DNA of 49,202 nt from Actinomycetes bacterium (GTDB lineage Bacteria > Actinomycetota > Acidimicrobiia > Acidimicrobiales > RAAP-2), in contig JAKAQM010000008.1 in NCBI GenBank assembly GCA_021822565.1, positions 1-49,202 on the forward strand. Direction: 5' to 3'. Position numbers and translations under genes: made by a program. This document shows, one piece after another, positions 4,213 to 34,399 of the stretch; within the stretch, counting starts at the first letter, position 1; every line of letters starts with the position of its first letter. Below the pieces are notes generated by a model. That model made no database searches. It was not told the DNA's origin and was given only the letters and a program-made list of their open reading frames with translations.

Positions 4213-4380
4213 GCCGAACGAGCCGATCACGTCGAGCACGTACCCATGGCGAGCAACTCCTCCCCCCGAACGACGAAGCTGCAGCACGGTTGCGCGTCTC
4301 GTGATCGCGCACGCTCCAACCGAGCGGAACCCGAGGGACACGCGGTCGGGACCTCGCGTGACCTCGTGTACCTCGGAGCT

Positions 4381-4409
4381 ATATGATCAAGTATTCGGCG
4401 CCTTGTCAA
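4381..4409 (-). promoter_or_regulatory. Promoter with TTGATCA box upstream of E1 alpha
   Basis: On the minus strand TTGACA (4404-4409) is followed after 17 bases by TCATAT (4381-4386), a good sigma70-type pair. TTGATCA (4384-4390) overlaps the upstream half of the -10, a position where a bound repressor would block polymerase. The motif position matches those at 21979-22011 and 42774-42806. The leader to E1 alpha would be about 165 bases. Confidence 0.6.
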
Positions 4410-4468: not shown

Positions 4469-5470
4469 TCACCCTCCATCGCAGCCGGGAGACACCGCCG
4501 GGAGGACCTGTGCGCCGAGCAGCTCGATCGCACGGAAAGGATCGGGCCCGAGCCGCCCCGAGAACGTGACCGTCGAGGGCCCCGCTTCGAGCAACCCTTC
4601 CAGTCCGGCGATGACGTCTCGGGCGTTCCCGCTCGCGACGAAGGTGTCGAGCGTCCGGTCGGAGATCCGGCGCGCCGCACCGTCGACGTCCCCTTCGGCC
4701 ATCGCCTCTCCCACACGGCGCACCTCCTCCGGGTCGACCTCGAAGAAGGCGACCTGCGGTTCGAAGACCCGCAGCGCCAGGAACTGCGCCAAGATCCGGC
4801 GCCCGAGCGCGCGGGCCTCCTCGCGGTCGTCGGCGATCGAGACCCACACCTCGCAGCCAACCGGATAGCCCTCCCAGCCGGCGGCCTCGCGAGCTCGTCG
4901 CTGCAGGTCGCGGAAGAAGCCAGGTGCGAAGATCCCCGCGGGACGCAGCTCGTCTGCCCACCGCGCGGCCTCGGCCACCATCCGAGGTCCGAGGGTGCCG
5001 ACGAAGATCGGCACCCTCGGTCGCTGGGGCTCCCAGAAGAACTGCGCCTGCGGATCGGCGGTGAACAGCTCGCCCTGGTAGGCGGCGCGGTCGCGCGCAA
5101 GGAGCCGGCGGATCAGCTCGGCCGTCTCACGCACTGCCGTGGTCGGCCGCGTGGCGGCGAGCCCGAGGGGGCCGAGCATCGAGCCGGCGCCCAAGCCGAG
5201 GATGGCACGCCCCCCCGAGAGCTCGTCGATCCCGGCGAGGCACGCAGCGGTGTCGGCGGGATGGCGCAGGTAGGGATGGGTGACGTCGGGACCGACGAGC
5301 ACGCGCTCGGTGTGCTCGGCGACGAGAGCCAGGATCGGCCACACCGGGCGCCACCAGACGATGTCGTGGACGGTCAGCTCGTCGAACGCGTACGACTCGA
5401 CTGCGCGCGCAAGTCTCGGGTAGTGGTCCATCGGGAAGGTGCCGTGGAGCTGTACGCCGAAGTGGGTCAT
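4469..5470 (-). CDS. LLM-class (luciferase-like) flavin/F420-dependent oxidoreductase 1
   Basis: Luciferase-like monooxygenase superfamily TIM-barrel enzyme, 333 residues, using FMNH2 or coenzyme F420. Visible hallmarks are the start MTHFGVQLHGTFPMDHYPRL, the VGPDVTHPYLRHPA strand, the GGRAILGLGAGSM segment, RPRVPIFVGTLGPRM and a helix GRRILAQFLALR. The start ATG 5470 overlaps the stop of the preceding gene as ATGA; the open frame runs further upstream but that part lies inside the octopine-dehydrogenase-like gene. It is the last gene of the long operon that begins near 21990. One of three LLM paralogues in the window (others at 14449 and 41650); the three are clearly divergent and probably act on different intermediates. 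Cofactor type cannot be decided by reading. Confidence 0.87.
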   Translation of the reverse strand: MTHFGVQLHGTFPMDHYPRLARAVESYAFDELTVHDIVWWRPVWPILALVAEHTERVLVGPDVTHPYLRHPADTAACLAGIDELSGGRAILGLGAGSMLGPLGLAATRPTTAVRETAELIRRLLARDRAAYQGELFTADPQAQFFWEPQRPRVPIFVGTLGPRMVAEAARWADELRPAGIFAPGFFRDLQRRAREAAGWEGYPVGCEVWVSIADDREEARALGRRILAQFLALRVFEPQVAFFEVDPEEVRRVGEAMAEGDVDGAARRISDRTLDTFVASGNARDVIAGLEGLLEAGPSTVTFSGRLGPDPFRAIELLGAQVLPAVSPGCDGG

Positions 5471-6534
5471 CCCGACGACAGCCTCTCTCGCAGCTCGGCG
5501 GCCGAGAGCTGAGCGAGCCCGAGGTTCTCGAGGGTCCGCCCCGACCGCTGGTAGTCCTCGCCGTTGACCGCCGACGCGATGGCGAGGAACGCATCGGCGA
5601 GCGGCGTCGCGACACCGAGCTTGCGCCCGAGCGAGGACCAGAGGGCGAGCCCGCACCCCACGTCCTCGGCGACGTAGCGGTGGTGGAAGTCGATCTTCTC
5701 GCGCCAGACCGACTGGCGCTCCATGGTCGCCCGCGAGATCACCCCGTAGAAGGTCTCGCCGACGCGCGAGTACAGGTCCTCGAGCGGCCAGTCGTGCGTG
5801 TGGTACCCGAGAGCGTGGCGCAGCGCGATCCGCTCCCGGTCGAGCTCCACGCTCACACGGACCACAGCAGGTGGGTTCCCCTCCAGGTGGATGTCGAACG
5901 CGTCCAGCCCCTCGATCGGTCCGGCATTCATGAGCACGAGTGGTGCGTGCAGCGCACCGTCGAAGTTGAGAAGTCCGGCGGCGAGCCCGTCCTCCACGGG
6001 CTCGGCGACCGGGTACAGCTCGCGGATCGGCGCGAGCGTTGCCTCGGTCCGCGCCGCGGGGTAGACGCCAGTCGGCAGGTGCGACGCGACGAGCCCGATC
6101 CGCACGGACGCAGGGCCCGACATTCGTGCTCCGTACGGCAGCGTCGCGCTCTCGGCGACAGGGACGTCGGCCCCGCCCGCTCGCTTCAGCGTCTCACGGA
6201 AGACGAAGGAGCCGAACGTGCCCGGCGTCAAGTAGACGACCTGTCCCTCGACAAGGCTCGACGCGACGGCGCGCGCGACATCCTCCTGCGCGTACGCAGG
6301 CAGTGGGACGAGGACGACGTCCGCGCCCACGACGATGCCGGCGTGGTCCTCGCTCACGGCGGCCAGCTCGGCCTCACCTTCGATCAGTCCTTCGAGCCGG
6401 ATCGTGCGCGTCGCGAAGATCTCCTCGAAGCGCGGGCGGTTGCGCAGTGCCAGCCGCACCTCGTGACCACGCAGCGCGAGATCGCCGGCGACCGCGACCG
6501 CACCGTGTCCCCCGCCGAGAACGGCCACGTTCAA
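5467..6534 (-). CDS. NAD/NADP octopine/nopaline dehydrogenase family protein
   Basis: 355-residue oxidoreductase with an N-terminal Rossmann fold (VAVLGGGHGAVAVAGDLALRG near residues 3-24) and an all-helical C-terminal domain of the octopine/nopaline dehydrogenase type. That domain includes the segment HAPLVLMNAGPIEG, the conserved histidine motif HALGYHTHDWPLEDLY, and a terminal GVATPLADAFLAIASAVNGEDY. Family members oxidise or form N-(carboxyalkyl) amino acids or reduce 2-oxo acids. The best start is TTG 6534 with GAGGAG nine bases upstream; GTG 6528 is an alternative. It lies 61 bases after the amidase stop and its own stop overlaps the LLM start. The natural substrate is unknown; an opine-like or secondary-amine intermediate would suit a pathway that breaks C-N bonds. 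Confidence 0.83.
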   Translation of the reverse strand: MNVAVLGGGHGAVAVAGDLALRGHEVRLALRNRPRFEEIFATRTIRLEGLIEGEAELAAVSEDHAGIVVGADVVLVPLPAYAQEDVARAVASSLVEGQVVYLTPGTFGSFVFRETLKRAGGADVPVAESATLPYGARMSGPASVRIGLVASHLPTGVYPAARTEATLAPIRELYPVAEPVEDGLAAGLLNFDGALHAPLVLMNAGPIEGLDAFDIHLEGNPPAVVRVSVELDRERIALRHALGYHTHDWPLEDLYSRVGETFYGVISRATMERQSVWREKIDFHHRYVAEDVGCGLALWSSLGRKLGVATPLADAFLAIASAVNGEDYQRSGRTLENLGLAQLSAAELRERLSSG

Positions 6535-6595
6535 TTCTCTGCGCTCCTCATGCTCGCTCCTGCGACACCGTCATGCGACCCGGGCGCGGGATCTC

Positions 6596-8149
6596 TCACC
6601 AGTCCTGCCAATCGCCCGCCTTCTCGAGAGCGCCGGCCAGACGGTAGATGTCCCGCTCCTGGTACCTGCCACCGACCAGCATCACGCCGACGGGAAGTCC
6701 GTCGACCATCCCGCAGGGCACCGACATCGCCGGGTGGCCGGTGCAGTTGAACGGGGCGGTGTTGATCGTCTGATCCGTCTCGAGCCGGGGCGCGTCGGAG
6801 CCCACGGACGTCCTCCCCTCGCCCCCCACGTCGTGACCTCCGCCTCGGGCCTCGGCCCTGAACGGCCTCGGCCCGAACGGCACCGTCGGGAGCGCAAGGA
6901 CGTCGACCTCTTGCAAGGCGCCGTCATACGCTGCTGCAAGCTGGCGGGCCAGGTTCTGGGCCTTGTGGTAATAACGACCACCGAACGAGGTGCGCAGGAT
7001 CTCACCTGCGATCATCGAGATGCGCACGGGCTCGGGGAGCTCGTCGGGATTGCGGCGCCAGGCGGCTTGCTGACGGGAGAGGCTGTCCAGGTGCAGGCCT
7101 TTCCAATTGGTCCCCATTCCGTTCCCGAGCATCATCATCTCGAGCCCGCCTTGAAGGACGATCGCCGACCAAATAGCTCCGGCCAGCCTGTGCATGGGGA
7201 CCGCCACCGGCCGGACGACCGCCCCCTGGCGCTCCAGGAGGTCGAGTGCCGCGCGGACCTTCTCTTCGACGCGGTGGTCTGCGCACGGCAGATCGAAGCC
7301 TTCTTCGAGCACTCCGACCCGCGCCCCGCGCACTGCGTCGCCGACGGCATCGGCGTACGAGCCGGGATCCTGGCGTGCCTGACGCGGGTCCAACCCGTCA
7401 GGGCCCGCGATCACCTCGAGCAGGAGTGCGTTGTCCCGCACCGTCGCCGTGATCGGGCCCACGTGGTCGAGCGTCTGTTCGACCGGGAAGATGCCGGTGT
7501 AGGGCACGAGGCCCCAGGTTGGCTTCATCCCGTAGACGCCGCACCACGCGGCGGGGATCCGGATCGATCCTCCCTGGTCCCCGCCGATCGCCATGTCGAC
7601 CTCTCCGGCGGCAACCGCGGCGGCCGACCCCGACGACGAGCCTCCCGCAGAGTACCCGCGACGATGCGGGTTATGGGTCGGTCCCGTCGCATTCGTGTCG
7701 CTCTCTCCCGAGAAGCACAGGTACTCGCAGTTCGTCTTCCCCGCGATCTCCGCGCCGGCGTCCAGAAGACGCGTCACGATCGTGGCATCGACCTCGGGCA
7801 CGTAGCCCTCCAAGTAGGAAGCACCGTTCATGAGCGGCACCCCTGCCACGCACACCGTGTCCTTCAGCGCCACACGCCGTCCCGCGAGCGGCCCGGTCGT
7901 GCTGCCTCGGATCGACGTCTTGCGGTACCACACGTGCAGAGGGTCCTCGTCGGGGCCCGGCCGGTAGCCCGGCGTGCGCTCGTAGCGCACCGGTGGGAGG
8001 TAGTCGGCCACGTGATCGAGCACGCGCACCGCGCCGACCAGCGCCGACACGCCCGGCGCCATGCGCTCGACTGTGCGCGCCCCCATCCCGACGCCGATCC
8101 GCTCGGCTGACGCGCCGATCGTCGCGTCGCTCACGTCGTCCACGTGCAC
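6596..8149 (-). CDS. Amidase (amidase signature family)
   Basis: 517-residue amidase-signature hydrolase. The Ser-cisSer-Lys triad is visible: Lys96 in VALKDTVC, cis-Ser171 in YSAGGSSSGSAAAVAAG, and nucleophile Ser195 in GGDQGGSIRIPAAWCG. The C-terminal part ends with the typical GLPVGVMLVGGRYQERDIYR. Family members hydrolyse amides, carbamates or aryl amides; specificity varies widely and cannot be inferred. Two consecutive aspartate-poor loops and a Gly-rich insert (RAEARGGGHDVGGEG) lie before the C-terminal domain. It sits 45 bases after the cyclase gene in the same direction, inside the long operon, together with two other C-N hydrolase-type activities (HyuAB and the cyclase). Confidence 0.92.
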   Translation of the reverse strand: MHVDDVSDATIGASAERIGVGMGARTVERMAPGVSALVGAVRVLDHVADYLPPVRYERTPGYRPGPDEDPLHVWYRKTSIRGSTTGPLAGRRVALKDTVCVAGVPLMNGASYLEGYVPEVDATIVTRLLDAGAEIAGKTNCEYLCFSGESDTNATGPTHNPHRRGYSAGGSSSGSAAAVAAGEVDMAIGGDQGGSIRIPAAWCGVYGMKPTWGLVPYTGIFPVEQTLDHVGPITATVRDNALLLEVIAGPDGLDPRQARQDPGSYADAVGDAVRGARVGVLEEGFDLPCADHRVEEKVRAALDLLERQGAVVRPVAVPMHRLAGAIWSAIVLQGGLEMMMLGNGMGTNWKGLHLDSLSRQQAAWRRNPDELPEPVRISMIAGEILRTSFGGRYYHKAQNLARQLAAAYDGALQEVDVLALPTVPFGPRPFRAEARGGGHDVGGEGRTSVGSDAPRLETDQTINTAPFNCTGHPAMSVPCGMVDGLPVGVMLVGGRYQERDIYRLAGALEKAGDWQDW

Positions 8150-8194
8150 CTCACTTCCACACCGGCAGTCGAGGTCCGGCGACCCACCCGGTCC

Positions 8195-9193
8195 TCACCG
8201 CAGCATCATCGGGTTGACCGGTGCCCCCACCGCCCCGGCGAACGGGATGGGTGCCGCGACCAGCATCCCCGCGTAGCGCCCATCCCCAGCACAGTGCTCC
8301 GCGAGCGCCTCGAGATCGAAATTCTCCCCGACCAGGAGCCCCATGTACACGATCGCGACCACGTGCACGGGCAGCATCACCGGTCCCTCGTTCGGAAGCA
8401 CCTCGCATGCCCAGTTGTCAATGGCGACAGCCGCCACCTCCCGGGCCTGCAACCATGGCAGCGCGTCCAGCGAGAGGCCCGCCTCGTCACTGTAGGCATA
8501 GCTCTTCCAGGTGCCTTCCCGCCGGGCCTTGGCGAGCGCCCCGGTGCGGACGAGGACGATGTCGCCGCGGCCCACGCTCACGCCCTCCCGCTCCCCCACG
8601 GCTGAGAGCGTGTCCGAGCCGATGGCATACCCGGGCTCCAGCCAGTCCACGCCCTCGTGACGGGCTACGTCGAGGAGCACCGCGCGCCCCGCGACGCGCT
8701 CTTTTGCAACCGTAATGCTATTACGTCTCGCACCGGCCGCGCTCACGTCCTCGCAGGGGTAGCCGTTGTACATGCGATACCGGTGGAATGCGTGAGCAAG
8801 GCTGTCCCAGTGCGTTGCAGCCTGGAGCGCCATGGTGACCATGTCGTCGGCATAGCCCCAGCCGTCGACACACCCCTCCTGGACGCCGAGCTTGATGTCG
8901 GTTCCCGTCTGGAGCATGGAGAGGGTCGGGTTGACTCGACGATCGCCCCACGGCTGGGGCCCGTACCTGTCGAACGACATGGCCAGCGAGACCGCGATGC
9001 CGTCGATGATCTCTGCGCGCGCTGCCACACGTCGATCTGGGGTGAGATGGTTGAGGGTCCCGAGCTCGTCATCCGAACCCCATCTCCCCCAATTGCTCAG
9101 GCCCTGCGCCAATTCATCCATCCGCGTCGCGTTCGCGCCAGCGGGAGCCCCTGCGACCCCCTCGGCGGCATTCGGCCGCTCGTCCCCGGTCAT
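8195..9193 (-). CDS. Cyclase family / kynurenine-formamidase-like metal hydrolase
   Basis: 332-residue member of the cyclase family (PF04199 type), which includes metal-dependent kynurenine formamidase and isatin hydrolase. The metal-ligand motif HxDxxxH is present as THWDSLAH (His128, Asp130, His134). A C-terminal glutamate segment and the AAIDNWACEVLP-like block (VAAVAIDNWACEVLP) are also typical of the longer subclass. Isatin hydrolase and related members open lactam or imide-like rings, and formamidase cleaves N-formyl groups, so ring opening or deformylation is plausible here. Start ATG 9193 overlaps the stop of the D-2-hydroxyacid dehydrogenase gene as ATGA. An alternative internal start is Met25 (RMDELAQGLSNWGRWG). 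Confidence 0.86.
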   Translation of the reverse strand: MTGDERPNAAEGVAGAPAGANATRMDELAQGLSNWGRWGSDDELGTLNHLTPDRRVAARAEIIDGIAVSLAMSFDRYGPQPWGDRRVNPTLSMLQTGTDIKLGVQEGCVDGWGYADDMVTMALQAATHWDSLAHAFHRYRMYNGYPCEDVSAAGARRNSITVAKERVAGRAVLLDVARHEGVDWLEPGYAIGSDTLSAVGEREGVSVGRGDIVLVRTGALAKARREGTWKSYAYSDEAGLSLDALPWLQAREVAAVAIDNWACEVLPNEGPVMLPVHVVAIVYMGLLVGENFDLEALAEHCAGDGRYAGMLVAAPIPFAGAVGAPVNPMMLR

Positions 9194-10179
9194 ACCCGTC
9201 CTCGCAGGTTGCGCCAGACGGACGGGTCGGCGAGGTGCCGCGGTCTCACGCCCGAGAGGACGTCCACGACCGAAGAGGCTGCATGCTCCTGCAGCGTGGC
9301 GATCGCCTCCTCGGAGTAGGCGCCGACGTGGGGAGTGACGACGACGTTCGGCAGGCGGAGGAGCTCGTCGTCCGCGTCGGGCGGCTCCGTCTCGAGGACG
9401 TCGAGCCCGGCCCCTCCGAGACGGCCGTCGCGCAGCCCTTCCAACAGGGCTGCCTGGTCCACCACTGCGCCTCGAGCCGTGTTGACCACGATGGCACCGT
9501 GCTTCATCCGAGCGATCTCCTCGGCACCGATCAGGTGGAACGTGGCCGGGGTGAGGCTGGTGTGGATCGACACCACGTCCGACGTCTCGACCAGCTCGTC
9601 CAGGCCGACCTTGGAGACGTCGTGAGAAGCGAACACGTGGTCAGCGACGTACGGGTCGGCAGCCACGATCTCGAGGCCGAACCCGGCCAGCTTCCTCGCG
9701 ACCGCTTGCGCCAGCGCCCCGAAGCCGACCAGCCCGACCCTGGAACCCTCCAGCCGGCGGATCGGCCTCACCGCCTCCATCGCAGGGAACGTGCCGGCGG
9801 GTGCGAGGCCAGCCAGAGGGACGAGCTTCCTCCACACGGCGAGCATCAGGGCGATCGCATGACTGCTCACTTCGTCCACGCAGTAATCGGGCACGCAGGT
9901 GACCGCGATCCCGAGCGAGGTCGCAGCCTCGACGTCCACATTGTCCACGCCCACGCCGTAGCGCGCGACCACCCTCACCCTCGGGAGCGCCTCGAGGAGC
10001 TCACGGCCGACGCGGTAGGCGAGGACCATCAGGGCATCGGCGTCCCGGGCATGCTCCGAGAGCTCCTCGGGGCTCGGTTGGCTCAACTCCACGAACTCGA
10101 TCCCGGCACGCGCGAAGATGCCGCGTTCGATCTCAGGGTTCCTGAAGGCGCCGTCCGTCTTCACCACTTTGCCGTTCAT
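9190..10179 (-). CDS. D-2-hydroxyacid dehydrogenase (phosphoglycerate dehydrogenase-like)
   Basis: 329-residue NAD-dependent D-isomer 2-hydroxyacid dehydrogenase, interconverting a 2-hydroxy acid and a 2-oxo acid. The catalytic residues are visible: Arg236 in VNTARGAVVD, Glu265 in DVLETEPP and His284 in VTPHVGAYS. The nucleotide fold is GLVGFGALAQAVARKLAGFG, where the last glycine of GxGxxG is alanine, as in some family members. The substrate domain begins MNGKVVKTDGAFRNPEIER, like the C-terminal-binding-protein subfamily. Start ATG 10179 overlaps the aldolase stop (ATGA); the open frame extends further upstream but only inside the aldolase gene. In context it may oxidise a 2-hydroxy acid to the 2-oxo acid used by the ferredoxin oxidoreductase or E1 complex. 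Confidence 0.9.
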   Translation of the reverse strand: MNGKVVKTDGAFRNPEIERGIFARAGIEFVELSQPSPEELSEHARDADALMVLAYRVGRELLEALPRVRVVARYGVGVDNVDVEAATSLGIAVTCVPDYCVDEVSSHAIALMLAVWRKLVPLAGLAPAGTFPAMEAVRPIRRLEGSRVGLVGFGALAQAVARKLAGFGLEIVAADPYVADHVFASHDVSKVGLDELVETSDVVSIHTSLTPATFHLIGAEEIARMKHGAIVVNTARGAVVDQAALLEGLRDGRLGGAGLDVLETEPPDADDELLRLPNVVVTPHVGAYSEEAIATLQEHAASSVVDVLSGVRPRHLADPSVWRNLRGRV

Positions 10180-10901
10180 ACGGTGGCCTTCGCTTCGGCC
10201 AGTGCCCATACGGGTGCTGCGCCTTCGATCATCCAGCTCGCGTCGGAACCGACCACGACGGCCGATGCGCCGAGCTCGATCCAGCGCTCGGCGTCCTCGT
10301 GGTCCGGGCTGAAGATCGCGAATTTCCAAGCGGCCTCCAGGCACGCCTCCACGATTCGTTCGACCACGGCCCGGACTTCAGGATGCCCGAGCTCGCCGGG
10401 ACGACCGAGAGCCGCCGAAAGATCTCCCGGGCCGATGAAGACCCCCTCCGGCCTGGGATCCAGGGTCAGGATCTCGGGAAGCGCCTCGACCGCCTCCAAC
10501 GTCTCGATCTGGGGCCACACCTCGCCTCGGCGCGTGCCGGACGTCACCTGCTCTCGCAGGAGCACACCGTAGAGGTTCGCTGCGGACGGCCCGATCCCCC
10601 GGATCCCCTCTGGTGGGTACGTGCAGAGCCTCACCAGCTCCGCCACCTCTTCGGCTGCCCGGATCCTCGGCACCACCACGCCGTCGGCGCCCAGGTCCAA
10701 CGCTTTGGGCGCATCCGTCAACTGCCTGACGCGAACCCATCGACATGCAGAGCGCGCGGCACGGAGCTGGGCCACGAGGACCGACTCGTCCCCGATCCCA
10801 TGCTCAGCGTCGACGACGACGAGGTCCAGGCGCCCGCTCACGATCGCCGTCGCCTCCGGAGAGGCGAGGCTCAGGAACGTGCCCACGCGCACTCGTGTCA
10901 C
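10176..10901 (-). CDS. HpcH/HpaI-type aldolase / citrate lyase family protein
   Basis: About 241 residues, TIM-barrel class II pyruvate aldolase of the HpaI type, cleaving a 4-hydroxy-2-oxo acid to pyruvate (or a related 2-oxo acid) and an aldehyde. Visible motifs are GTFLSLASPEATAIVSG, LVVVDAEHGIGDES (catalytic His region), DGVVVPRIRAAEEVAEL, WPQIETLEAVEALPEIL with the metal-binding glutamate, and GVFIGPGDLSAALG with the metal-binding aspartate. The start is most likely GTG 10901, overlapping the preceding stop as GTGA; GTG 10892 is an alternative. A much longer open frame upstream is a shadow of the oxidoreductase gene. Its place between the hydroxyacid dehydrogenase and the 2-oxo acid oxidoreductase suggests carbon-carbon cleavage late in the pathway. 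Confidence 0.88.
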   Translation of the reverse strand: MTRVRVGTFLSLASPEATAIVSGRLDLVVVDAEHGIGDESVLVAQLRAARSACRWVRVRQLTDAPKALDLGADGVVVPRIRAAEEVAELVRLCTYPPEGIRGIGPSAANLYGVLLREQVTSGTRRGEVWPQIETLEAVEALPEILTLDPRPEGVFIGPGDLSAALGRPGELGHPEVRAVVERIVEACLEAAWKFAIFSPDHEDAERWIELGASAVVVGSDASWMIEGAAPVWALAEAKATV

Positions 10902-13900
10902 TCGAACTGCGAACGCACCGCGCCCTCGTCCAAGCCCAGGGCACGCAGCAGCTCCACCCTCCTCGAGTCGTACGTTGCCACGTTTCGCATCTTCACCTCC
11001 TCGTAGCCGCGCACGATATCCGCAAGAGCGGCGAATTCGGATGCCAACGCGTGGTTCTCGGACGACATGATCGCCGCCACCCGCCGGATGTCCGTGTCGA
11101 ACTCCTTCACGAGGCGCCGCTCCGCCTTGCGGACGTCCGTGTGGGCGAACGGGTCGAGCGGGCCGCCACGGAGCACACGCGCCGCCCGGAGGGCCGAGAA
11201 GACGGGGCGGAACCACGGACCCACCTCGACTTTGCGGGTGAGCCCGATCGACGTGAGCACCGGCGGCTGTAGCAGCCAGCTGACACGCACGCCACGACGT
11301 CGGGCCTCCTCGGGGACGGACGCGAGGTGCAACCGGGCAACTTCGTACTCGTCCTTGTACGCCATGAGCTTGTAGAGGGAGCGTGCGACGCTCGAGGCGA
11401 AGGCAGAGGAGCCCGGAGCTACACGCTCCTCTGCCTCCAAAGCGATCTCGACGACCTCGACGTAGTGGCGTGCGTACTGAGGGCTCTGGTACTCGACCAG
11501 GTCGCGCGCGCGGAGCTCGACGAGGTGACGAAGCTCGGATGTCCGTCGGATCGGATCTGGCAGCTCCACCGCTGAGCGAGACGAGCCTTCTGTCTCGTGA
11601 GGCTCGCGACGTGCTGCGAGGGCCTCGTCCACCCGTGGTCGATCGGAAACCCATGCCCGTCCCCAGCGGAAGGCGGCGAGGTTCTGCGCGACGGCGACCC
11701 CGTTGAGCTCGATGGCGGCCTCGACCGCGTCAGCCGGGAGCGGGATGGCCCCGACCTGGTACGCGACCCCGAGAAGCAGCACGTTCGCGTAGAGCGCCGA
11801 CCCGAGCAACCCTTCGGCGAGCGCAACGCTGTCCACCAGAACGCACCGGGGCGCGCCGACGAGCGCGGTGAGCACCTCTTCGACCTGCGTTGGCGAGGGC
11901 AGGGAACGCTCGGGGTGCGAGACCATGTCGCCGGTGGGCGTCTGGCTGGTCGAGACGACCGCGATGGTCCGGCCGGGCTCGATGGTCTCGAGGTTGGGGG
12001 ACTGGAGCGACACCACCTGGTCGAAGCCCAAGAAGAGGTCCACGCCCCCACGGGTTGCCTGGTTGGAGCCATCGACTGCCTTGGCGCTGACGCGTAGCTC
12101 GGACACCACGGGCCCCGCCTTCTGGCTGAGGCCGGTCTGGTCGAGGCCGTGGACATGACGGCCGGCACGGGTCGCCGCCGTCCCGATGATCTGGCTCACG
12201 GTCACCACCCCCGTCCCACCGATCCCCGGCATCCGGATGACGCAGTCCTCAGGGCTCACCGCCTGCGGAGGCTGTGGAAAGGCGCCCGGCGGGGATCCGA
12301 CTCCCGTTCCCTGCTCTCGAGGACCATCGGCGGGGTTCCAGGGTCTGCGGGCGTGACCGAGGAGCCTGCGCACCAGGCTCGATGGGCGCGAGTCGACGAT
12401 CACGAACGACGGGCAGTTCCCTCGAAGACAGGAGTAATCGGCGTTGCACGAGCTCTGGTCGATGGTGGTCTTGCGGCCGAGCTCGGTGTCGACCGGCTCG
12501 ACCGACAGACAGTTCGAGACCGCCGAGCAGTCCCCGCAGCCTTCGCACACCCGCTCGTTGATGTGGACGCGCCGGGTCGGAGCGGGGAGCCGCCCCCGGG
12601 TGCGATCCCGACGTTTCTCGGCGGCGCAGCGCTGATCATGGATGAGCACCGTCACGCCGGGCACCCCGGCGAGGACGCGCTGAGCCTCGAGCACCCGCCC
12701 GCGATCCCACACCTCCACCCCCCGAGGGAGCCGCACGCGGCGATAGCGCGCGGGATCGTCGGTCGTGACGAGGACACGGCTGACGCCCTGGCGCAGGAGG
12801 ATCTCCGCGACGTCTTCGACTGGACGGCTGTCGCTCTCTGCGGGGTCCTGTCCTCCCGTCATTGCGATCGCACCGTTGAAAAGCAGCTTGAACGTGACGT
12901 GCGATCCTGCGGCGACAGCCGCTTGGACCGCGAGCTGGCCGGAGTGGAAGTACGTCCCGTCGCCCATGTTCTGGACCAGATGGTCGGCTTCGACGAACGG
13001 CTCGAGACCCAGCCAGGTGGCTCCCTCCCCGCCCATCTGGGCCTTGGTCACGATGTCGCCCACCATGTGCTCGTCTGCCCAGGCGCCCAGCGCGTGGCAA
13101 CCGGTTCCCACACCGACCAGCGTGCCTTCGGGGACGCGCAGGCTCGAGTTGTGCGGGCATCCCGAGCAGAAGAACGGGGTGCGCTGCGTGGTCGCCACCG
13201 GGATCTTCGGGCGCTGCCGGTCCGGGGAGGGAAGCACCACTCCTGGAACCCGCTGGGCCAACCGCGCGGCGACGACCCGTGCGAGCCGGTCGGACGTGAG
13301 CACGCCGAAGCCGGGGAGAAGGGGTGCTCCATGCTCGTCGCGGCGCCCCACGATCGTCGGGGGGTCCGGCACGCCGTACAGGGCATCGCGCAGGTAGGGC
13401 TCGAGCAGCGGCTGCTTCTCCTCGACGACCAAGATCTCGCGCAGTCCTCTGCCAAAAGCTCGGAAGGCGTGCGGCTCCAGCGGGTGGAACATCTGCACCT
13501 GCATGAGGCGAACGCCGAAGCGGCGAAGACCGGCTTCGTCGAGGTCCAGCAGCTCCATCGCCGAGATCAGCTCCCTGTAGAGGCTGCCGGCCGCGACGAT
13601 CCCCAGCCATGCGTCCGGCGGGTCCACAGTGACACGGTTGAGCCCGGCGATCCGCCCGTACCGCGCGGCGGCCTCGCGGCGCAGCGTCGCGATCTCTTGC
13701 TCCGTCTCGAGAGACTCCGGCACACAGGGCGGTCGGACCTTCGCGAGGGACGGGACGCCGGCGTCCCGTGGCTCGTTCCCCGTCGCACGGAGGGCCGATG
13801 CAGGGATCGAACCGAAGCCGTCGGCGACGGACGCGACGATCTTGAGCGCCGTCCAGAGCCCTGAAGATCGCGACAGCTCTACTCCATGTGCGCCGAGCGA

Positions 13901-15534: not shown

Positions 15535-17216
15535 TCGGCCTCGACGCCGTAGACCTCGCTCGCGCTGCGCGGGGTCACCCGGCCCTCTCGCACGTCCTCG
15601 AGCACCGTCTCGCGAGGTCGCTCCGATGGAAGGCCGTACCCTCCGCTGCCAGAGCAGCGAAAGCTGACGACGTCACCCCGCCGGAGGTGCACGACCTCCT
15701 TGGAGTGGAGCCTCCGCTCGTCGGCTCCCCCCGGGTTCAAGACGGTCTCTCCAAGGAGGCCGTCTTGGCCACCGAAGAGCCCGTAGGCGGGGTAGACGTG
15801 GCGGTCCGTCAGGTTCGAGAGGATGACGTCGTCCGCGAGCATGCGGATGTCCTTGCGAACGCCCAGTCCACCTCTCCACCTGCCTGCTCCTCCCGAGTCG
15901 GGAATGAGCTCGTAGCGCTCGACGATGATCGGGTTCCTCGCCTCCTGGGCCTCCACGGGGATGTTCTCGACCGACACGGTCGGGGGGATCGCATCGAGCC
16001 CGTCTTTGGACGAGCGCGCACCGACGCCGCCCATGACGTAGTCGTAGAACACGAACGTCCGCCCGCTGGAAGGGTCGATCCCCCCGAAGATCGGGTTGGT
16101 CCATTGGCCGCTCGCCGCGCAGACGCGGTCGGGCACGATCTTCGAAAGCGCGCCGAACAGCAGCTCGACGATCCGCTGGTTGAGCAGCGCACGGCCGTTC
16201 AGGGCAGCGGGAGGCACCGGATTGAAGAAGCAGCCCGGTGGCGCCGTGATCTGCAAGGGGCGGAGCTGGCCCTCGTTCTGGGGAATGGTGTCGCGCGTCG
16301 TGATGGCCTTGGCGACCCAATAGCAGTACGCCTTCAAGTAGGACATCGTGCAGTTGAGCGAAGAGGGCGTCTGGGGATCCGTACCCGTGAAGTCGAAGAG
16401 GAGATCGCCGCCACTGACGGTGACCGCGACTTCCAACCTGATCGGAGGCGACCCCGGGCCGTGATCGTCGAGGTAGTCCACGAACGTGGCCGTCCCATCG
16501 GGAATGCCGAGCAGCTCGCGTCGCACCGCCTGCTCGGACTGGGTGAGGAATTGCTCGGCGGCGGCATCGACGACCGGAGAGCCGACCTGCCCGTGGAACT
16601 GCGCCAGCTTCGTCGCACCCACGTGGAGCGCGGCACGCTGGGCGCGAATGTCTCCGAGGACCAGCTCCGGCACTCGCACGTTCGCACCGATCAGCTCGAA
16701 GATCTCGCGCACCGGCTCCCCTTCCCTGTAGAGACGGGTGGGCAGGAGGCGGAGCCCTTCCTGGACCCCCTCGGTGACGCCGACGACTGCCTGGCTCCCG
16801 GGAGCAGGGCCGCCGATGTCCGTCAAGTGGATGCAGCTCACGACGAAGCCGGCCAATCTTCCCGCGTGGAACGCGGGGCTCATGGCGAAGAAGTCCGGAA
16901 GATGGCCCGAGCCCATGTACGGATCGTTCAGCACGATCACGTCGCCGGGCACCAGCGTGTCGACGGGGTACGCGTCGAGCATGTGCTGCACCACGTGCGG
17001 CATGGCCCCCAGGTGCGCGGGGCTGCGGTTCGCCTGCGCCAGCATGCGGCCTGCTGCGTCGAAGACCGCGGTGGAATAGTCCCCTCCCTCCCGAACCTGG
17101 TCCGAGAAGGCGCAGCGCTGCTGGGCTTCGGCCATCTCCTCTGCGATCGCCGCCAACCTGCCCCACACGACAGCGACCGTCAGCGGGTCGACACAGGCGT
17201 GGTCCGACGCGCTCAC
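15528..17216 (-). CDS. hyuB: Hydantoinase B / 5-oxoprolinase family, HyuB-like subunit
   Basis: 562-residue HyuB family subunit, partner of HyuA in ATP-dependent hydrolysis of hydantoins, 5-oxoproline or N-methylhydantoin, or in ATP-dependent acetone/acetophenone carboxylation. Conserved blocks are FSDQVREGGDYSTAVFDA, SPAHLGAMPHVVQHML, GDVIVLNDPYMGSGHLPD, FDFTGTDPQTPSSLN, NQWTNPIF-like GQWTNPIFGGIDPSSG and the terminal SGGYGLPSERP. Start GTG 17216 overlaps the HyuA stop as GTGA and gives the normal length; the frame continues upstream only as a shadow of HyuA. Which of the HyuAB reactions applies cannot be settled by reading. Confidence 0.92.
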   Translation of the reverse strand: MSASDHACVDPLTVAVVWGRLAAIAEEMAEAQQRCAFSDQVREGGDYSTAVFDAAGRMLAQANRSPAHLGAMPHVVQHMLDAYPVDTLVPGDVIVLNDPYMGSGHLPDFFAMSPAFHAGRLAGFVVSCIHLTDIGGPAPGSQAVVGVTEGVQEGLRLLPTRLYREGEPVREIFELIGANVRVPELVLGDIRAQRAALHVGATKLAQFHGQVGSPVVDAAAEQFLTQSEQAVRRELLGIPDGTATFVDYLDDHGPGSPPIRLEVAVTVSGGDLLFDFTGTDPQTPSSLNCTMSYLKAYCYWVAKAITTRDTIPQNEGQLRPLQITAPPGCFFNPVPPAALNGRALLNQRIVELLFGALSKIVPDRVCAASGQWTNPIFGGIDPSSGRTFVFYDYVMGGVGARSSKDGLDAIPPTVSVENIPVEAQEARNPIIVERYELIPDSGGAGRWRGGLGVRKDIRMLADDVILSNLTDRHVYPAYGLFGGQDGLLGETVLNPGGADERRLHSKEVVHLRRGDVVSFRCSGSGGYGLPSERPRETVLEDVREGRVTPRSASEVYGVEAEW

Positions 17217-19258
17217 CTCGCCCCCAGCACGTGCACGAGGAGCGAGCCGTCCGGAGCAACCTCCACTTCGTCGCCGGGGAGCACGACGGTCGTGGTCGTC
17301 GTCTCGGCAACGAGGCACGGCCCGACGACGACGTCCCCAGGACGGAGGCTCGAGCGCTGGTGCACGTCGACGTCGACGAGCCCCGTCTCCGGGTAGTACA
17401 CCGTCCGCCGAGCCGGGATGCCCGCATCGGCTCGGCCGGCGCGCTGCGAGGGCACCTGGCGCTCAGCGCGCCCCTTCACGAGGGCCACATGCCAGGTGAC
17501 GACTTCGACCGGATGCCCACGCTCAGCGTAGCCGTACGCCTGCGCGTAGCGCTCCTCGAAGATCTCCGCGAAACGAACGGCATCGGCCTCCTCGACGTCG
17601 ACGGGAACCAGGAATTCGTGGCCTTGTCCGACGTAGCGCATCCCCAAGGTGCAGACGACCCGCACCTCCTCGCCCGAACGGAACGCGCTCCTGCTCGCTT
17701 CGTCGACCAGCTCCTCCAGGATCGCCTTCGAGCGCACGCTCGCGTCGTCGTCGAGCCGCAGCAGGGACGTGCGCGTCAGCTCCATCGACACCGAGGCCTC
17801 CAGCAGGCCGCGGGCCGAACCCCCGCTTGCAGCCAGCGGGACCACGGCCACCTCCACCCCGAGCGCGCGGGCGAGCCGCGGGCCGTGCACCGGTCCTCCG
17901 CCGCCCAGGCAGACGAGCGCGAGCGTGCGCGGGTCGAACCCACGGTTGATCGACACGAGCCGGATGGCGTGCTCCATGTCCAAGGTGGCCACTTCGTGGA
18001 TCCCCCACGCCGCGCGCAGGCGGTCGACCCCAAGGGACGCGGCGAGACCGTCGACGGCCGCCTCGGCCGCCTCGACGTCCAGGCTGATCCCACCAGAGAA
18101 CGCCGAGGGGTCGCAGTAGCCGAGCAAGAGATTGGCGTCGGTCACGGTCGGAGCAGTGCCTCCTCTTCCGTAGCAGGCCGGTCCGGGATTGGCGCCCGCG
18201 CTCCGAGGCCCGACACGCAGCGTTCCTTCGCGCACCTCGGCGATGCTGCCGCCTCCGGTGCCGATCTCCACCAGGTCGAGGGCTGCGATGTCGACGGGGA
18301 GGCCGCTGCCGCGCCGGTTGCCGACCCTCTGGAGCTCGAAGTACGACGCCGTCGCCGGCACCCCGCCGTGCACGACCGCCGCCTTGGCCGTCGTTCCCCC
18401 CATGTCGAACGAGAGGACGTCGGGGTACCCGAGCGAGGATCCGAAGCGCGCCGCGCCGACGACGCCCGCGGCCGGTCCGGACTCGAGCGTCCGAACCGGG
18501 CGATCGAGGACCTGGTCCATGGACGCGAGCCCGCCACTCGACTGCATGATCCAGACCGGCACGTCGATCCCCACCGAAGGCAGCCGTTCGACCAGCTCCC
18601 GGAGGTACTCGGACACGGAGGTGGCGATGTACGAATTCACCACTGCCGTGTTGGCTCGCTCGTACTCGCGCGCCTGGAGCGAGACGTCACTGGAGATCGT
18701 GATCACCATCCCGGGAAGCTCCCTCGCCAGGATCTCCGCCGCACGACGCTCGTGCGCAGGGTTCGCATAGGAGTGGAGGAACGTCACAGCGAGCGCCTGC
18801 GCCCCCGATTCCCGAATTTCCGCCGCGACCGCGCGCACCTCGTCCTCGTCGAGGGGGAGCGGAACCGACCCGTCCGCGAGCGTCCGCTCGCTCAGCTCGA
18901 AGCTGAGCGAGCGCTCGACGAGCGGCCGAGGCTTGTCGAGCTGCACGTCGTACATGCTCCATCGCAGCGCGCGCTGGATCTGCAGGATGTCGCGGAACCC
19001 GCGCGTGGCGAGGAAGGCAGTCGTTGGACCGCTCCTCTCGAGCACGGTGTTCGACCCTCGGGTGGTCGCGTGCACCACCTCGCGCACCTCCCCAGGCGCG
19101 ACGTGCGCCTGCTCGAGGACGGCGCTGACACCGGAGGTGATGGCCCCCACGAGATCCTCCGGCTCTGCAAGGACCTTCTCGAAGAAGAGACCCCCGTGCT
19201 CGTCCTCGAGGACGAGGTCGACGAACGTCCCGCCGACGTCGATTCCCAGCCTAGCCAC
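17213..19258 (-). CDS. hyuA: Hydantoinase A / 5-oxoprolinase family, HyuA-like ATPase subunit
   Basis: 681-residue HyuA-type subunit with an actin-like ATPase fold. It begins VARLGIDVGGTFVDLVLEDEH (the phosphate-1 loop). It has the VVHATTRGSNTVLERSGPTTAF block, the HSYANPAHERRAAEI segment, the MQSSGGLASMDQVLDRPVRT motif, SFDMGGTTAKAAVV, and the VCLGGGGPVHGPRLARALGV motif. GTG 19258 is preferred because GGGAG lies six bases upstream and the protein then begins directly with the ATPase motif; ATG 19279 is an alternative. It overlaps the CoA ligase stop by eight bases. HyuAB in this operon supply an ATP-driven opening of a cyclic amide or imide, or a carboxylation. Confidence 0.92.
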   Translation of the reverse strand: MARLGIDVGGTFVDLVLEDEHGGLFFEKVLAEPEDLVGAITSGVSAVLEQAHVAPGEVREVVHATTRGSNTVLERSGPTTAFLATRGFRDILQIQRALRWSMYDVQLDKPRPLVERSLSFELSERTLADGSVPLPLDEDEVRAVAAEIRESGAQALAVTFLHSYANPAHERRAAEILARELPGMVITISSDVSLQAREYERANTAVVNSYIATSVSEYLRELVERLPSVGIDVPVWIMQSSGGLASMDQVLDRPVRTLESGPAAGVVGAARFGSSLGYPDVLSFDMGGTTAKAAVVHGGVPATASYFELQRVGNRRGSGLPVDIAALDLVEIGTGGGSIAEVREGTLRVGPRSAGANPGPACYGRGGTAPTVTDANLLLGYCDPSAFSGGISLDVEAAEAAVDGLAASLGVDRLRAAWGIHEVATLDMEHAIRLVSINRGFDPRTLALVCLGGGGPVHGPRLARALGVEVAVVPLAASGGSARGLLEASVSMELTRTSLLRLDDDASVRSKAILEELVDEASRSAFRSGEEVRVVCTLGMRYVGQGHEFLVPVDVEEADAVRFAEIFEERYAQAYGYAERGHPVEVVTWHVALVKGRAERQVPSQRAGRADAGIPARRTVYYPETGLVDVDVHQRSSLRPGDVVVGPCLVAETTTTTVVLPGDEVEVAPDGSLLVHVLGAR

Positions 19259-20960
19259 GGCGGGCTCCCTGGAGGGCATCGTCCACGCCACGGCTCCCCG
19301 TCCCGTCGCCCAGCTCCTCGATGATCTGCTCGCGCAGGCGAAACTTCTGGATCTTCGTGGACGACATCGGCCAATCCGTCACGAATCGAACATGCCGAGG
19401 GACCTTGAACGATGCGATCCTGCCGCGGCAGAACGCGATCACGTCCTCCTCGCGGAGCCGAGCCCCCGGTGACAGCTCGACGAACGCCGCCGGAACTTCG
19501 GTCAGGCGGTCGTCGGGCACTCCCACCACCTGGCTCAGCTTGATGCCGGGATGCGAATCCAAGAAGGCCTCGACTTCTCTGGCGGAGACGTTCTCACCCC
19601 CGACCTTCAGAACATCTCGCAGTCTTCCATAGAAGGAAATGAACCCATGCTCATCCATCGAGCACAAGTCACCCGTATGGAAGAAGCCATCGGCGTCGCG
19701 AGTCGCAGCGGTCTGCTCCGCGTTCTTGTAGTAGCCGCTGAACAGGCTCCTCCCGCGCGTCGCGAGCTCACCTTTCACGCCGTGTGGCAAGCGAGCCCCG
19801 GTCAGCGGATCCACGATCTTCGCTTCCCAACCTGGGAGCACTGGGCCGCATGAGCGCATTCGCGCCTCGTAGCCGTCGTCCAGGCGGCTGTACGAAAGGG
19901 TCCCACACACTTCGGTCATTCCGTAGGCATTGACGAGGACAGCGGGAGAGAAGGCCTCCTGGATCTGCACTTGCGTGCTCTCCGGGCTCACGTTGCAGAT
20001 GGCCCGCACATCGCGCCTGTCGTAAGAGGAGAAGCCCGGATCCTGCATGAAGTTCAGCGTGATCGTAGGGAAAAGCGGGTACAGCAGCGTCGGCCGTTGT
20101 GCTGCGCACAGGGCCACGGCCTCTTTGGACTCGAACCGTTCCTGACTGATGAACGTCGCCCCGCGGCTGAAGACCGCCGACATGACGAGCAGGGCCGCGA
20201 CGTGGAACATCGGCAGCGGGCACCAACAGCGGTCATCAGGGGTGATTTCGAAACGCTGGGCAGTGCCGACCGCATTGGCAACGAACGCATCATGCGTGAA
20301 GACGCAGCCCTTCGCCATCGACGTGGTGCCCGACGTGTACATGTACATGATCGGATCGTCCGGCGAAGCCCCGTCCTCGGGGGCCGGAGGCAACTCCAGC
20401 GCCATCCGATCCACCATCGACTCATTGAGCATCCCTGCGGGCGCGGTCGCGCCAAGCATGACGACGTGCCGGAGGCGCGGGAACTGCTCCAGCCCCAAGT
20501 GCTTGGTGGGATCGGAGGCCTCCAGCCCGGAAAGCGCCTCGGTCACGACCGGACCCAGCTGATAGGGCTCGTCGAGCTGGCTGGTGGTGACCAGCGCTCG
20601 GAGGTCGCCGTCTCGACAGACGTGGGAGATCTCGAAGGTCCTGTACCGGATATTGATCGGCACGAGAATGGCGCCGAGTCGCGCTGCGCCGAGAAAGAGC
20701 TCGACGAACTGGGGCGAATTGGGGAGAATCAGCCCGAACGTCTCCCCACGCCCCACGCCGAGCGCCCGAAGTTGGCCCGCACGCCGACCGGCTCGTTCCC
20801 AGAGCTCGGAGTAGGTCAGCGCGCCACCTGGGAACACCAGGGCGGGGTGGTCGGGCCGTGCGGCTGCACTGGCTCGGAACATCTCCGCATAGGTCCAGCG
20901 TCGGTTGCAGGACTCTGTCAGACCTGCTGTCACCGAGGGCGGCACCGTCGGGTCGGTCAT
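19251..20960 (-). CDS. Acyl-CoA ligase / AMP-dependent synthetase 1
   Basis: 569-residue class I adenylate-forming enzyme that activates a carboxylic acid to acyl-AMP and then acyl-CoA. The ATP-binding motif is MYTSGTTSMAKGCVFTHDA. The A5 motif is NAYGMTEVCGTLSYS, the hinge/A7-A8 region contains FFHTGDLCSMDEHGF and GRLRDVLKVGGENVSAREVE, and the C-terminal catalytic lysine region is MSSTKIQKFRL. Start ATG 20960 overlaps the preceding stop as ATGA; the frame extends upstream only as a shadow. It is the second gene of the long operon. Similar domain blocks in the ligase at 22082 show two separate CoA ligases in neighbouring operons. The substrate acid is not predictable by eye. Confidence 0.92.
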   Translation of the reverse strand: MTDPTVPPSVTAGLTESCNRRWTYAEMFRASAAARPDHPALVFPGGALTYSELWERAGRRAGQLRALGVGRGETFGLILPNSPQFVELFLGAARLGAILVPINIRYRTFEISHVCRDGDLRALVTTSQLDEPYQLGPVVTEALSGLEASDPTKHLGLEQFPRLRHVVMLGATAPAGMLNESMVDRMALELPPAPEDGASPDDPIMYMYTSGTTSMAKGCVFTHDAFVANAVGTAQRFEITPDDRCWCPLPMFHVAALLVMSAVFSRGATFISQERFESKEAVALCAAQRPTLLYPLFPTITLNFMQDPGFSSYDRRDVRAICNVSPESTQVQIQEAFSPAVLVNAYGMTEVCGTLSYSRLDDGYEARMRSCGPVLPGWEAKIVDPLTGARLPHGVKGELATRGRSLFSGYYKNAEQTAATRDADGFFHTGDLCSMDEHGFISFYGRLRDVLKVGGENVSAREVEAFLDSHPGIKLSQVVGVPDDRLTEVPAAFVELSPGARLREEDVIAFCRGRIASFKVPRHVRFVTDWPMSSTKIQKFRLREQIIEELGDGTGSRGVDDALQGARRG

Positions 20961-21853
20961 CCTGCGCCCGACTTCGAGGCGGCGGTGTCGGGCGTCTGGA
21001 CGTCGAGCTCGGCAACCTCTTCCCGTTCGTCCAGCGCGCGGAGGAACTCGGCCACCGCCGCCGCGAACGGTACCGGAAGTTGGTCGGGCAGCGGGACCAT
21101 CCCTGTGGCCAGCTCGATGACCTTCGCGTCGGGCAGCGCCTCGCGCCAACGTGCCAACATGGGATACGCGAACGGATCGGCGGAACCTACGAGAACCAGT
21201 ACGGGGAGTCCCGTCCGCCTCAGCTCTTCGGCTCGCTCCGGCGCCGGGTACCGGTTGACCGCTCGGTGACCCTCTTCGGCACGACTGCCCACTCGAAGAG
21301 CATCCGCGACGAACCTTCGGAGCAGGTCGGAGCGACCCGCGGGATAGAACGCGAGCCTGCGACGCCACAGCTCGGTCAAATGCGACCCGTCCGGTCGCTC
21401 GGTGACGTCATCCACCCCGGGGCCGGCCAACGCGGCGGCGCGCTCGTCAGCAGAACGTAGCGGGGCGGAGGACAAGACGACGGCCCGGACCCTTGTGGGA
21501 CACCGAACGGCCACCTCGAGCGTCACCAGCGCTCCGGTATGGTGCCCGACGAGCGCGACCTGGTCGAGACCGAGCTCATCGATCAACAGGGTGAGCCCGT
21601 CTGCGTAATGCTCGATCGAATCCCCGGCACGCGGATCCAGATCTGATGCCCCGAACCCCGGGGTGTCCAAGGCAACCGTGTCGTAGTCGCGCCCGAGCAG
21701 CGGCAGGACGTCTCGGTACTCGTCCCATGAACGAGGGGTCTGGTGCGCCATCGCCACTGGCGCGCCGTTCCCTTCGCCGCAGCGCGCGAAATGAAGCTGG
21801 CCCCACGGCACGTCGACGTAGCCCCGGCGGATGGTCACCGCATCTTCACTCAC
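20957..21853 (-). CDS. Alpha/beta-hydrolase-fold protein with replaced catalytic residues
   Basis: 298-residue alpha/beta hydrolase-fold protein. The nucleophile elbow reads LVGHHTGALV, so the usual serine is threonine (Thr106, codon ACC read directly). The acid is present (GSADPF, Asp226), but the segment where the catalytic histidine normally sits reads ATGMVPLPDQLP, with Met252 at the expected position. The oxyanion-hole region is MAHQTPRSWDEY. Loss of both Ser and His suggests a non-hydrolytic or unusual mechanism (lyase, C-C hydrolase or binding protein), or that another residue serves; this is inference. Start GTG 21853 follows only a weak GGGA. First gene of the long operon, about 125 bases downstream of a TGATCA-box promoter. 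Confidence 0.82.
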   Translation of the reverse strand: MSEDAVTIRRGYVDVPWGQLHFARCGEGNGAPVAMAHQTPRSWDEYRDVLPLLGRDYDTVALDTPGFGASDLDPRAGDSIEHYADGLTLLIDELGLDQVALVGHHTGALVTLEVAVRCPTRVRAVVLSSAPLRSADERAAALAGPGVDDVTERPDGSHLTELWRRRLAFYPAGRSDLLRRFVADALRVGSRAEEGHRAVNRYPAPERAEELRRTGLPVLVLVGSADPFAYPMLARWREALPDAKVIELATGMVPLPDQLPVPFAAAVAEFLRALDEREEVAELDVQTPDTAASKSGAG

Positions 21854-21947
21854 GGCGATCCCAGGGCGGCAGGAGGCGTACCGCGAGAGCCTGTTGCATC
21901 ATGTCCGGCCAAGGTGTTCCGATGCGCGGGTGTGGTCTCAGACTCAT
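21846..21947 (-). CDS. Possible 33-residue leader ORF overlapping the hydrolase start
   Basis: In the leader of the long operon a perfect AGGAGG (on the minus strand, about 21949-21954) directly precedes a small open frame. It begins with ATG 21947 and ends with a TGA that overlaps the hydrolase GTG by eight bases. The ATG is too close to the AGGAGG for normal initiation; a CTG two codons later would be at ideal spacing. The peptide (MSLRPHPRIGTPWPDMMQQ and onward) has no recognisable domain. It may be a leader that couples translation into the hydrolase gene, or chance. Confidence 0.25.
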   Translation of the reverse strand: MSLRPHPRIGTPWPDMMQQALAVRLLPPWDRRE

Positions 21948-21978
21948 CCCTCCTGACAGTCCTCGCTCCCACTGCCAT

Positions 21979-22011
21979 GGATATTTGATCACCGCTCCCT
22001 CTCCGCCGCAA
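21979..22011 (-). promoter_or_regulatory. Promoter with TGATCAAATATCC box for the 12-gene operon
   Basis: On the minus strand TTGCGG (22006-22011) is followed after 17 bases by TCAAAT (21983-21988). TGATCAAATATCC (21979-21991) covers the -10, with TGATCA at 21986-21991. The same 13-mer in the same position is found at 42774-42786. The first gene of the operon starts 125 bases downstream. Confidence 0.6.
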
Positions 22012-23656: not shown

Positions 23657-23737
23657 CAGCACTGCTCCACCAGCGTCCCGCCACCAGCCAGGTCCTGCCC
23701 GCGTACGATGCCATACGGCGAACGAGACCCGCAGCCG

Positions 23738-24913: not shown

Positions 24914-24964
24914 CCCGGCACGCTCCACACTGTGAGAAACCCGTCCAAACCCACGAGCCGTCTT

Positions 24965-26530: not shown

Positions 26531-26575
26531 GGCTTCCGCACCCTCACCTTCTCCGGCGCTTCATACGCCCACGAG

Positions 26576-27780: not shown

Positions 27781-27827
27781 TGATCAAATATATACGTAAC
27801 TGTACAGCAATCTTCCTGCACCGTCAA
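27781..27827 (-). promoter_or_regulatory. Promoter with TGATCAAATATA box for the sugar-type ABC operon
   Basis: On the minus strand TTGACG (27822-27827) and TACAGT (27799-27804) are 17 bases apart. A TGATCAAATATA box read on the plus strand (27781-27792) would overlap the start site and the first transcribed bases. The -10 lies in a CTGTACAG palindrome (27800-27807). This is the most AT-rich stretch in the window. Confidence 0.55.
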
Positions 27828-31049: not shown

Positions 31050-31050
31050 C

Positions 31051-32477: not shown

Positions 32478-32555
32478 CGCCAGTCATACCTCCGATGGCC
32501 TCACGGCTCCCTCACCCCAAGGCGTGCTTGTGCACACCTTCACGGAGCGGCGGTG

Positions 32556-34389: not shown

Positions 34390-34399
34390 AGGCGCATCT

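Follow-up and report, generated by a model that had tools for sequence, protein, structure and literature searches.

ATP-dependent lactamases (CapAB, 5-oxoprolinase, and N-methylhydantoinase) share a two-subunit HyuA/HyuB organization, ATP motifs, and an Asp/His/Asp/His metal site, whose four ligands are essential in caprolactamase (PMC8453981). Other described systems with similar components are the anaerobic indoleacetate (iaa) pathway of Aromatoleum aromaticum, which has a hydantoinase-like lactam hydrolase, a coenzyme A (CoA) ligase, and acyl-CoA-dehydrogenase-family steps, the Rhodococcus-type nitrile hydratase-amidase operons, and phenylacetate (paa) catabolism. Here, we analyzed a 12-gene operon with a HyuAB pair in a 49,202-nucleotide stretch (the window), which is one whole contig (C189) of the genome of an uncultured actinobacterium (G000; 3.02 Mb, 89% complete, 236 contigs), and compared it with the genus mates G001, G004, and G005. 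The operon appears to belong to a new conserved catabolic regulon assembled from known enzyme families, and we consider it rather likely that it is one transcript of a regulon for a nitrogen-containing organic acid, probably aromatic or heterocyclic.

Compared to the known lactamases, the HyuAB pair scores far below the NCBIfam caprolactamase equivalog cut-offs (HyuA, 466 of 1000 bits; HyuB, 245 of 1000 bits), which rules out caprolactamase itself, and it has partners of its own, namely, luciferase-like (LLM) enzymes, an indolepyruvate-ferredoxin-oxidoreductase-family enzyme (IOR), and an amidase. With the iaa pathway, the differences lie in the acyl-CoA dehydrogenase homologues found in the relatives, in which the catalytic YEG motif is replaced by SPV or TPV and not by the GGG that marks IaaF (PMC8360864). 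The missing signature speaks against simple membership in the Aromatoleum pathway, and the loss of YEG raises the possibility that the homologue is no standard dehydrogenase. The loci read contained no recognizable B12 mutase (IaaGH), although no genome-wide search was made, and the cluster adds LLM enzymes, IOR, a nitrile hydratase, and a 2-oxo-acid dehydrogenase complex (E1/E2). In G004, a RhAmidase-group amidase is followed by a cobalt-type nitrile hydratase, as in Rhodococcus-type operons, but the amidase is embedded in a far larger regulon and no nitrile hydratase was found in the G000, G001, and G005 genomes. The PaaK-type ligase and the PaaX-like regulator of the genus mates recall paa catabolism, but both score below the equivalog cut-offs (132.1 bits against 264.55 for PaaX) and no PaaABCDE epoxidase was recognized in the loci read. 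Searching the literature for this set of genes, or for close analogues of it, retrieved no published description of the cluster, in line with a preliminary description of this DNA that had matched the operon to no named pathway. The enzyme families are known, but their combination, a total length well above 40 kb, the motif common to the transcripts, and the recurrence in a distant actinobacterium point to a catabolic pathway that is named by no database model or open paper searched.

The same description had listed 12 genes over 17 kb, and Pfam and NCBIfam models, applied with score cut-offs, confirmed the families, their order on the minus strand, and the operon as a gene layout (Table 1). 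It had also stated that most junctions overlap by four or eight bases, and with the best starts this applies to 9 of 11: eight overlap by 4 bp (alpha/beta hydrolase/ligase 1, HyuA/HyuB, HyuB/LLM1, LLM1/IOR, IOR/HpaI, HpaI/hydroxyacid dehydrogenase, hydroxyacid dehydrogenase/cyclase, and opine-dehydrogenase-like enzyme [ODH]/LLM2) and one by 8 bp (ligase 1/HyuA), while gaps remain at cyclase/amidase (45 to 51 bp) and amidase/ODH (61 bp). The start of ligase 1 was corrected to near 20960 using its AMP-binding domain, leaving an overlap of just 4 bp with the hydrolase gene. The genes thus show the usual operon layout (same strand, short or overlapping junctions, and an order kept in relatives) and are presumably co-transcribed as a single RNA. 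All 12 are under purifying selection, with ratios of nonsynonymous to synonymous substitutions of 0.07 to 0.28 against two genus mates, G005 and G004. The limits drawn around the 12 genes did not hold, as same-strand genes run from 42744 down to 2 and a TGATCAAATAT-type motif precedes three further same-strand operons in the window, making this one of at least four motif-preceded transcripts.

Table 1 Features of the window
Feature	Position	Strand	Evidence and conservation
Alpha/beta hydrolase, first gene of 12	20957..21853	-	PF00561, E 6e-17; 85% G005, 81% G004, 55% Gaiella
Acyl-CoA ligase 1 (AMP-binding)	19251..20960	-	PF00501
HyuA, ATP subunit of ATP-dependent lactamase/hydantoinase	17213..19258	-	PF01968/PF05378/PF19278; 92% G005, 80% G004, 68% Gaiella
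HyuB, metal subunit	15528..17216	-	PF02538; 94% G005, 86% G004, 75% Gaiella
LLM1, luciferase-like oxidoreductase (F420 or flavin mononucleotide, FMN)	14449..15531	-	PF00296; Gaiella homologue 68%, directly behind HyuB
Fused IOR-family enzyme	10898..14452	-	PRK13030; 90/88/73% in genus mates
HpcH/HpaI-type aldolase	10176..10901	-	PF03328; GarL/HpaI-like in NCBIfam, below cut-off
D-2-Hydroxyacid dehydrogenase	9190..10179	-	PF02826/PF00389
PF04199 "cyclase" family hydrolase	8195..9193	-	Pfam; sole solved relative found, uncharacterised 5ibz
Amidase, Rhodococcus RhAmidase group	6596..8143	-	PRK07235, 653 bits, cut-off 545; best solved relative 3a1k, E 8e-124
ODH	5467..6534	-	PF02317; best solved relative 1bg6; 77% Gaiella
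LLM2, luciferase-fold enzyme (Mer-like, F420 type), last gene of 12	4469..5470	-	PF00296; Mer model, 158 bits, below cut-off
Motif TGATCAAATAT before 12-gene transcript	21981..21991	-	Exact in G004; two mismatches in G005
Motif TGATCAAATAT before importer transcript, inverted orientation	27781..27791	+	Exact in G005; one mismatch in G004
Motif TGATCAAATAT before LLM3 transcript	42776..42786	-	Exact in G001, G004, and G005
Motif TGATCAAGTAT (one mismatch) before E1-alpha transcript	4384..4394	+	Also present in G005 and G001
Acyl-CoA ligase 2, end of importer transcript	22082..23662	-	PRK06155, 746.5 bits, cut-off 722; 54% Gaiella
CUT2-type ATP-binding cassette (ABC) importer	23738..27664	-	Pfam
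2-Oxo-acid dehydrogenase E1 alpha	3157..4341	-	PF00676; same place behind ODH-LLM2 in G005/G001
2-Oxo-acid dehydrogenase E1 beta	2156..3160	-	PF02779/PF02780
Lipoyl E2 acyltransferase	1029..2159	-	Lipoyl motif DKASAEIPSP in translation; orthologue in G005/G001
HisC-like/aromatic aminotransferase, truncated by contig end	2..1008	-	Orthologue PRK03321, 408 bits, cut-off 374
LLM3 transcript, ~14 kb	28548..42744	-	Pfam; same order in G004 at 86-96%

The promoter that had been placed at about 21990 coincides with the motif TGATCAAATAT, but a generic promoter scan gave no sigma-70-type site nearby. As the motif sits in both orientations and the scan was negative at this position, we favor an operator over a promoter element. 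The window contains four sites (0.05 expected from shuffled sequence), and the whole 3.0-Mb genome has five with at most one mismatch, four of which are inside the window (P of ~3e-7 under uniform placement); 40 other genomes sampled from the family yielded just four exact copies in total. Of the five sites in G004, four precede the hydrolase operon, the LLM3 unit, the importer, and an acyl-CoA dehydrogenase homologue behind a nitrile hydratase, and the fifth is ahead of another LLM gene; in G005, three of five are upstream of cluster transcripts. The sequence CTTGC plus 16 bases lies ahead of several motif sites. This distribution suggests that one factor may co-regulate the four transcripts. 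Outside the cluster, a conserved one-mismatch site, TGATCAAAGAT, is present at the start of a molybdopterin-oxidoreductase-like gene (L124:9156 in G005 and L126:8224 in G001), and on contig C51 of G004, an exact motif is found ~50 bp before a luciferase-like gene not seen in the window (L128:2716-3837).

The search for the operon in other genomes, proposed along with the preliminary description, found the gene order kept in the genus mates and only part of the set, as clustered homologues, in a distant genome (see below). With 73 to 95% identity, G004 and G005 share the gene order that begins at the importer, G004 as far as the amidase; in G005, the importer-to-cyclase part is on contig C65 and cyclase-amidase-ODH-LLM2-E1-E2-HisC is on contig C28. 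G005 and G001 continue as amidase-ODH-LLM2-motif site-E1-E1-E2-HisC, a TrpB-like enzyme, a CN-hydrolase, PaaK, a Liv-type importer, and the PaaX-like regulator, followed by a second molybdenum (Mo) hydroxylase, the acyl-CoA dehydrogenase homologue, a quinone-oxidoreductase-like protein, an enoyl-CoA hydratase, a thiolase, a small DUF35-like protein, and then another cyclase; in G001, this continuation is split over two contigs. The G004 amidase gene stands directly before the nitrile hydratase beta and alpha subunits (VCTLCSC, cobalt type) and accessory genes (locus L040). A riboswitch had been suspected before the G004 acyl-CoA dehydrogenase, and an Rfam search of it found none. A second nitrile hydratase-HyuAB neighborhood occurs in the genus, on contig C112 of G002, where a nitrile hydratase alpha/beta pair and a HyuAB pair other than ours (39% and 32%) are arranged divergently (L068:90-5876).

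The residues of the HyuAB pair itself are informative. In an alignment to the CapB structure (6yra_B), all four ligands (Asp41, His99, Asp102, and His124) are aligned and conserved in HyuB, and HyuA has the ATP motifs DxGGTxTD, DxGGT, and GxxPGP as DVGGTFVD (with Val for the Thr of the first motif), DMGGT, and GANPGP. Because HyuB keeps the metal ligands and HyuA the ATP motifs, the best reading is that the pair would open a cyclic amide in an ATP-driven reaction. Neither HyuA relatives (29 to 46%) nor IOR paralogues of other genomes (43 to 49%) were in the context of the operon in the loci read, HyuB relatives at 44 to 50% in other actinobacteria had different contexts, and the loci of Natrinema, Azospirillum, Pseudooceanicola, Palleronia, and Caballeronia had just a few distant genes in common with ours. 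IOR belongs to its family with a wide margin (1263.6 bits on PRK13030; cut-off, 816). The source genome has two further paralogues of it (48%), on contigs C183 and C120, in a different context. The best structural matches of LLM2 are to Mer, the F420-dependent methylene-tetrahydromethanopterin reductase. ODH and LLM2 (window 4469-6534) show a synonymous divergence from G004 (contig C144) of 0.34 to 0.46, against 0.69 to 1.05 for the other ten genes, which may mean that these two have a history of their own.

The distant genome is a metagenome-assembled genome (MAG) of Gaiella sp. FR_16, in which we found 16 homologues with 51 to 80% identity within ~33 kb. Apart from HyuA, HyuB, LLM1, the alpha/beta hydrolase, ligase 2, and ODH (Table 1), these include LLM2 (69 to 73%, with one frameshift), again paired with ODH, three Mo hydroxylase subunits (70 to 80%), PaaK (64%), the acyl-CoA dehydrogenase homologue (70%), the enoyl-CoA hydratase and the thiolase (69% each), the DUF35-like protein (52%), and the quinone-oxidoreductase-like protein (51%). 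The hydroxyacid dehydrogenase of the Gaiella cluster is just ~31% identical. The frameshift splits LLM2 (L091:13145-14139) near 13690 and is either a real loss or an assembly error. Since a comparably close HyuB (75%) occurs in 1 of the 129 genomes of the order of Gaiella, the other 128 being without it, the cluster has likely spread horizontally as a unit.

Taking these data together, we propose a reaction order and a substrate class as follows. The importers would take the compound up, and nitrile or amide forms would be hydrolyzed by the RhAmidase-type amidase, together with the nitrile hydratase (in one strain) and possibly with a nitrilase-superfamily enzyme (in others). Mo hydroxylases and luciferase-fold (F420 or FMN) enzymes would convert the ring to a cyclic amide, which HyuA would activate with ATP and HyuB would open at its metal site. 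The carbon chain could then be degraded by the CoA ligases together with enzymes of beta-oxidation (acyl-CoA dehydrogenase homologue, enoyl-CoA hydratase, and thiolase), with hydroxy- and 2-oxo-acid side products passing to acyl-CoA through the hydroxyacid dehydrogenase, IOR, and the E1/E2 complex. The aromatic aminotransferase, TrpB-like enzyme, IOR, PaaK, and PaaX-like regulator together lean toward an acid of the aryl- or indolyl-acetate kind, HyuAB and the two Mo hydroxylases lean toward an N-heterocycle or lactam, and nitrile or amide forms are indicated by the nitrile hydratase and the amidase. These leanings follow from enzyme families, several of them below equivalog cut-offs. The ring compound with nitrogen suggested as substrate in the preliminary description still derives from HyuAB and the Mo hydroxylases, with the G004 nitrile hydratase suggesting a nitrile or amide form, and the interpretation given there is supported in part, namely, for a catabolic unit around C-N hydrolases. 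It is possible, at somewhat less than an even chance, that all this amounts to a novel pathway spread between actinobacterial orders, in which Mo-dependent hydroxylation, the chemistry of F420/FMN luciferase-fold enzymes, and lactam hydrolysis driven by ATP would open an N-heterocycle, with a CoA-ester drain and one dedicated regulator.

Several observations weigh against the proposed catabolic regulon. Orthologues of IOR, the HpaI aldolase, the amidase, and the cyclase are absent from the Gaiella cluster, whose loci also showed no copy of the motif. In the incomplete G000 MAG, neither the second Mo hydroxylase nor the TrpB-like enzyme has a close orthologue, G004 is rearranged (ODH-LLM2 and TrpB-like-CN-hydrolase on contig C144, PaaX-Mo hydroxylase on contig C108), and the many parallel hydrolases could serve several substrates. 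Given its distribution over several contigs and its partial rearrangement in G004, we describe the system as a regulon and not as a fixed operon, and as the Gaiella core is without those four orthologues, the 2-oxo-acid branch is probably an auxiliary add-on. For the same reason, the linear order from ring opening to hydroxy acid, 2-oxo acid, and acyl-CoA that had been suggested for the operon finds no support.

The best specific guess for the substrate, albeit an unlikely one, is an indolic, auxin-like compound, i.e., indole-3-acetate together with its precursors. Entry would be via the aminotransferase, the hydroxyacid dehydrogenase, and IOR for tryptophan, indolelactate, and indolepyruvate, and via the nitrile hydratase and amidase for indole-3-acetonitrile, while a Mo hydroxylase would make the oxindole and HyuAB would open its lactam. 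Lactam opening has reportedly been proposed for the hydantoinase-like IaaCE of Aromatoleum. The IOR-family enzyme above its own cut-off, the aromatic-type aminotransferase, TrpB-like enzyme, and PaaK-type ligase in the genus mates, the PaaX-like regulator with a Mo hydroxylase, and the nitrile hydratase behind the amidase all fit this scheme, and IaaCE is given as a relative in PMC8453981. However, the IaaF signature discussed above is missing, no mutase was recognized in the loci read, the TrpB-like enzyme has further copies in the genus, and the family names of IOR and PaaK are no substrate assignments. If the substrate is auxin-like or another heterocyclic acid, uncultured actinobacteria would have an added turnover route for such compounds.

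A little less probable still is that there is no single pathway and that one shared regulator controls an island of loosely related hydrolases and oxidases with which many amides, nitriles, and organic acids are scavenged. The many parallel hydrolases, the several importers, the different composition in G004 and Gaiella, and the additional conserved motif site near an unrelated molybdopterin oxidoreductase would be expected in such an island, but most motif sites are at cluster transcripts, the junctions overlap tightly, and a 16-gene core recurs together in a different actinobacterial order. HyuAB could also be an ATP-dependent acetone/acetophenone-type carboxylase, with the operon handling an aryl ketone and then activating the resulting beta-keto acid with CoA. 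Both belong to one superfamily, the operon has CoA ligases, and the NCBIfam acetophenone-carboxylase models do match HyuA (270 bits) and HyuB (100 bits); as the caprolactamase models score much higher (466 and 245 bits), acetophenone carboxylase has several subunits against the two of HyuAB, and the amidase and nitrile hydratase would be unexplained, we regard this as very improbable. An ordinary pathway for caprolactam, hydantoin, or 5-oxoproline, accompanied by extra genes, agrees with the HyuAB family and is the least probable of all, given the scores far below the caprolactamase cut-offs and partner genes unfit for such short pathways. For the regulon that we favor, the defined gene list, the candidate operator sequence, and the minimal conserved 16-gene core allow a direct hunt for the substrate.

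Among the other genes of the window, the importer consists of a permease (23738-24928), a double ATPase (24965-26530), and a binding protein (26576-27664), and its matches are to sugar-binding-type structures. The LLM3 transcript codes, in this order, for LLM3, an M20 peptidase, an FAA hydrolase, M24, ketopantoate reductase, M24, an amine oxidase, a GntR/FCD regulator (33607-34290), ketopantoate reductase, and the M, S, and L subunits of a Mo hydroxylase. Rfam and tRNA scans of the window gave no matches. Last, a divergent amine oxidase gene (42780-44489, plus strand) and a Liv-type ABC importer occupy the end of the window (42780-49202) and are conserved in G005 and G001.

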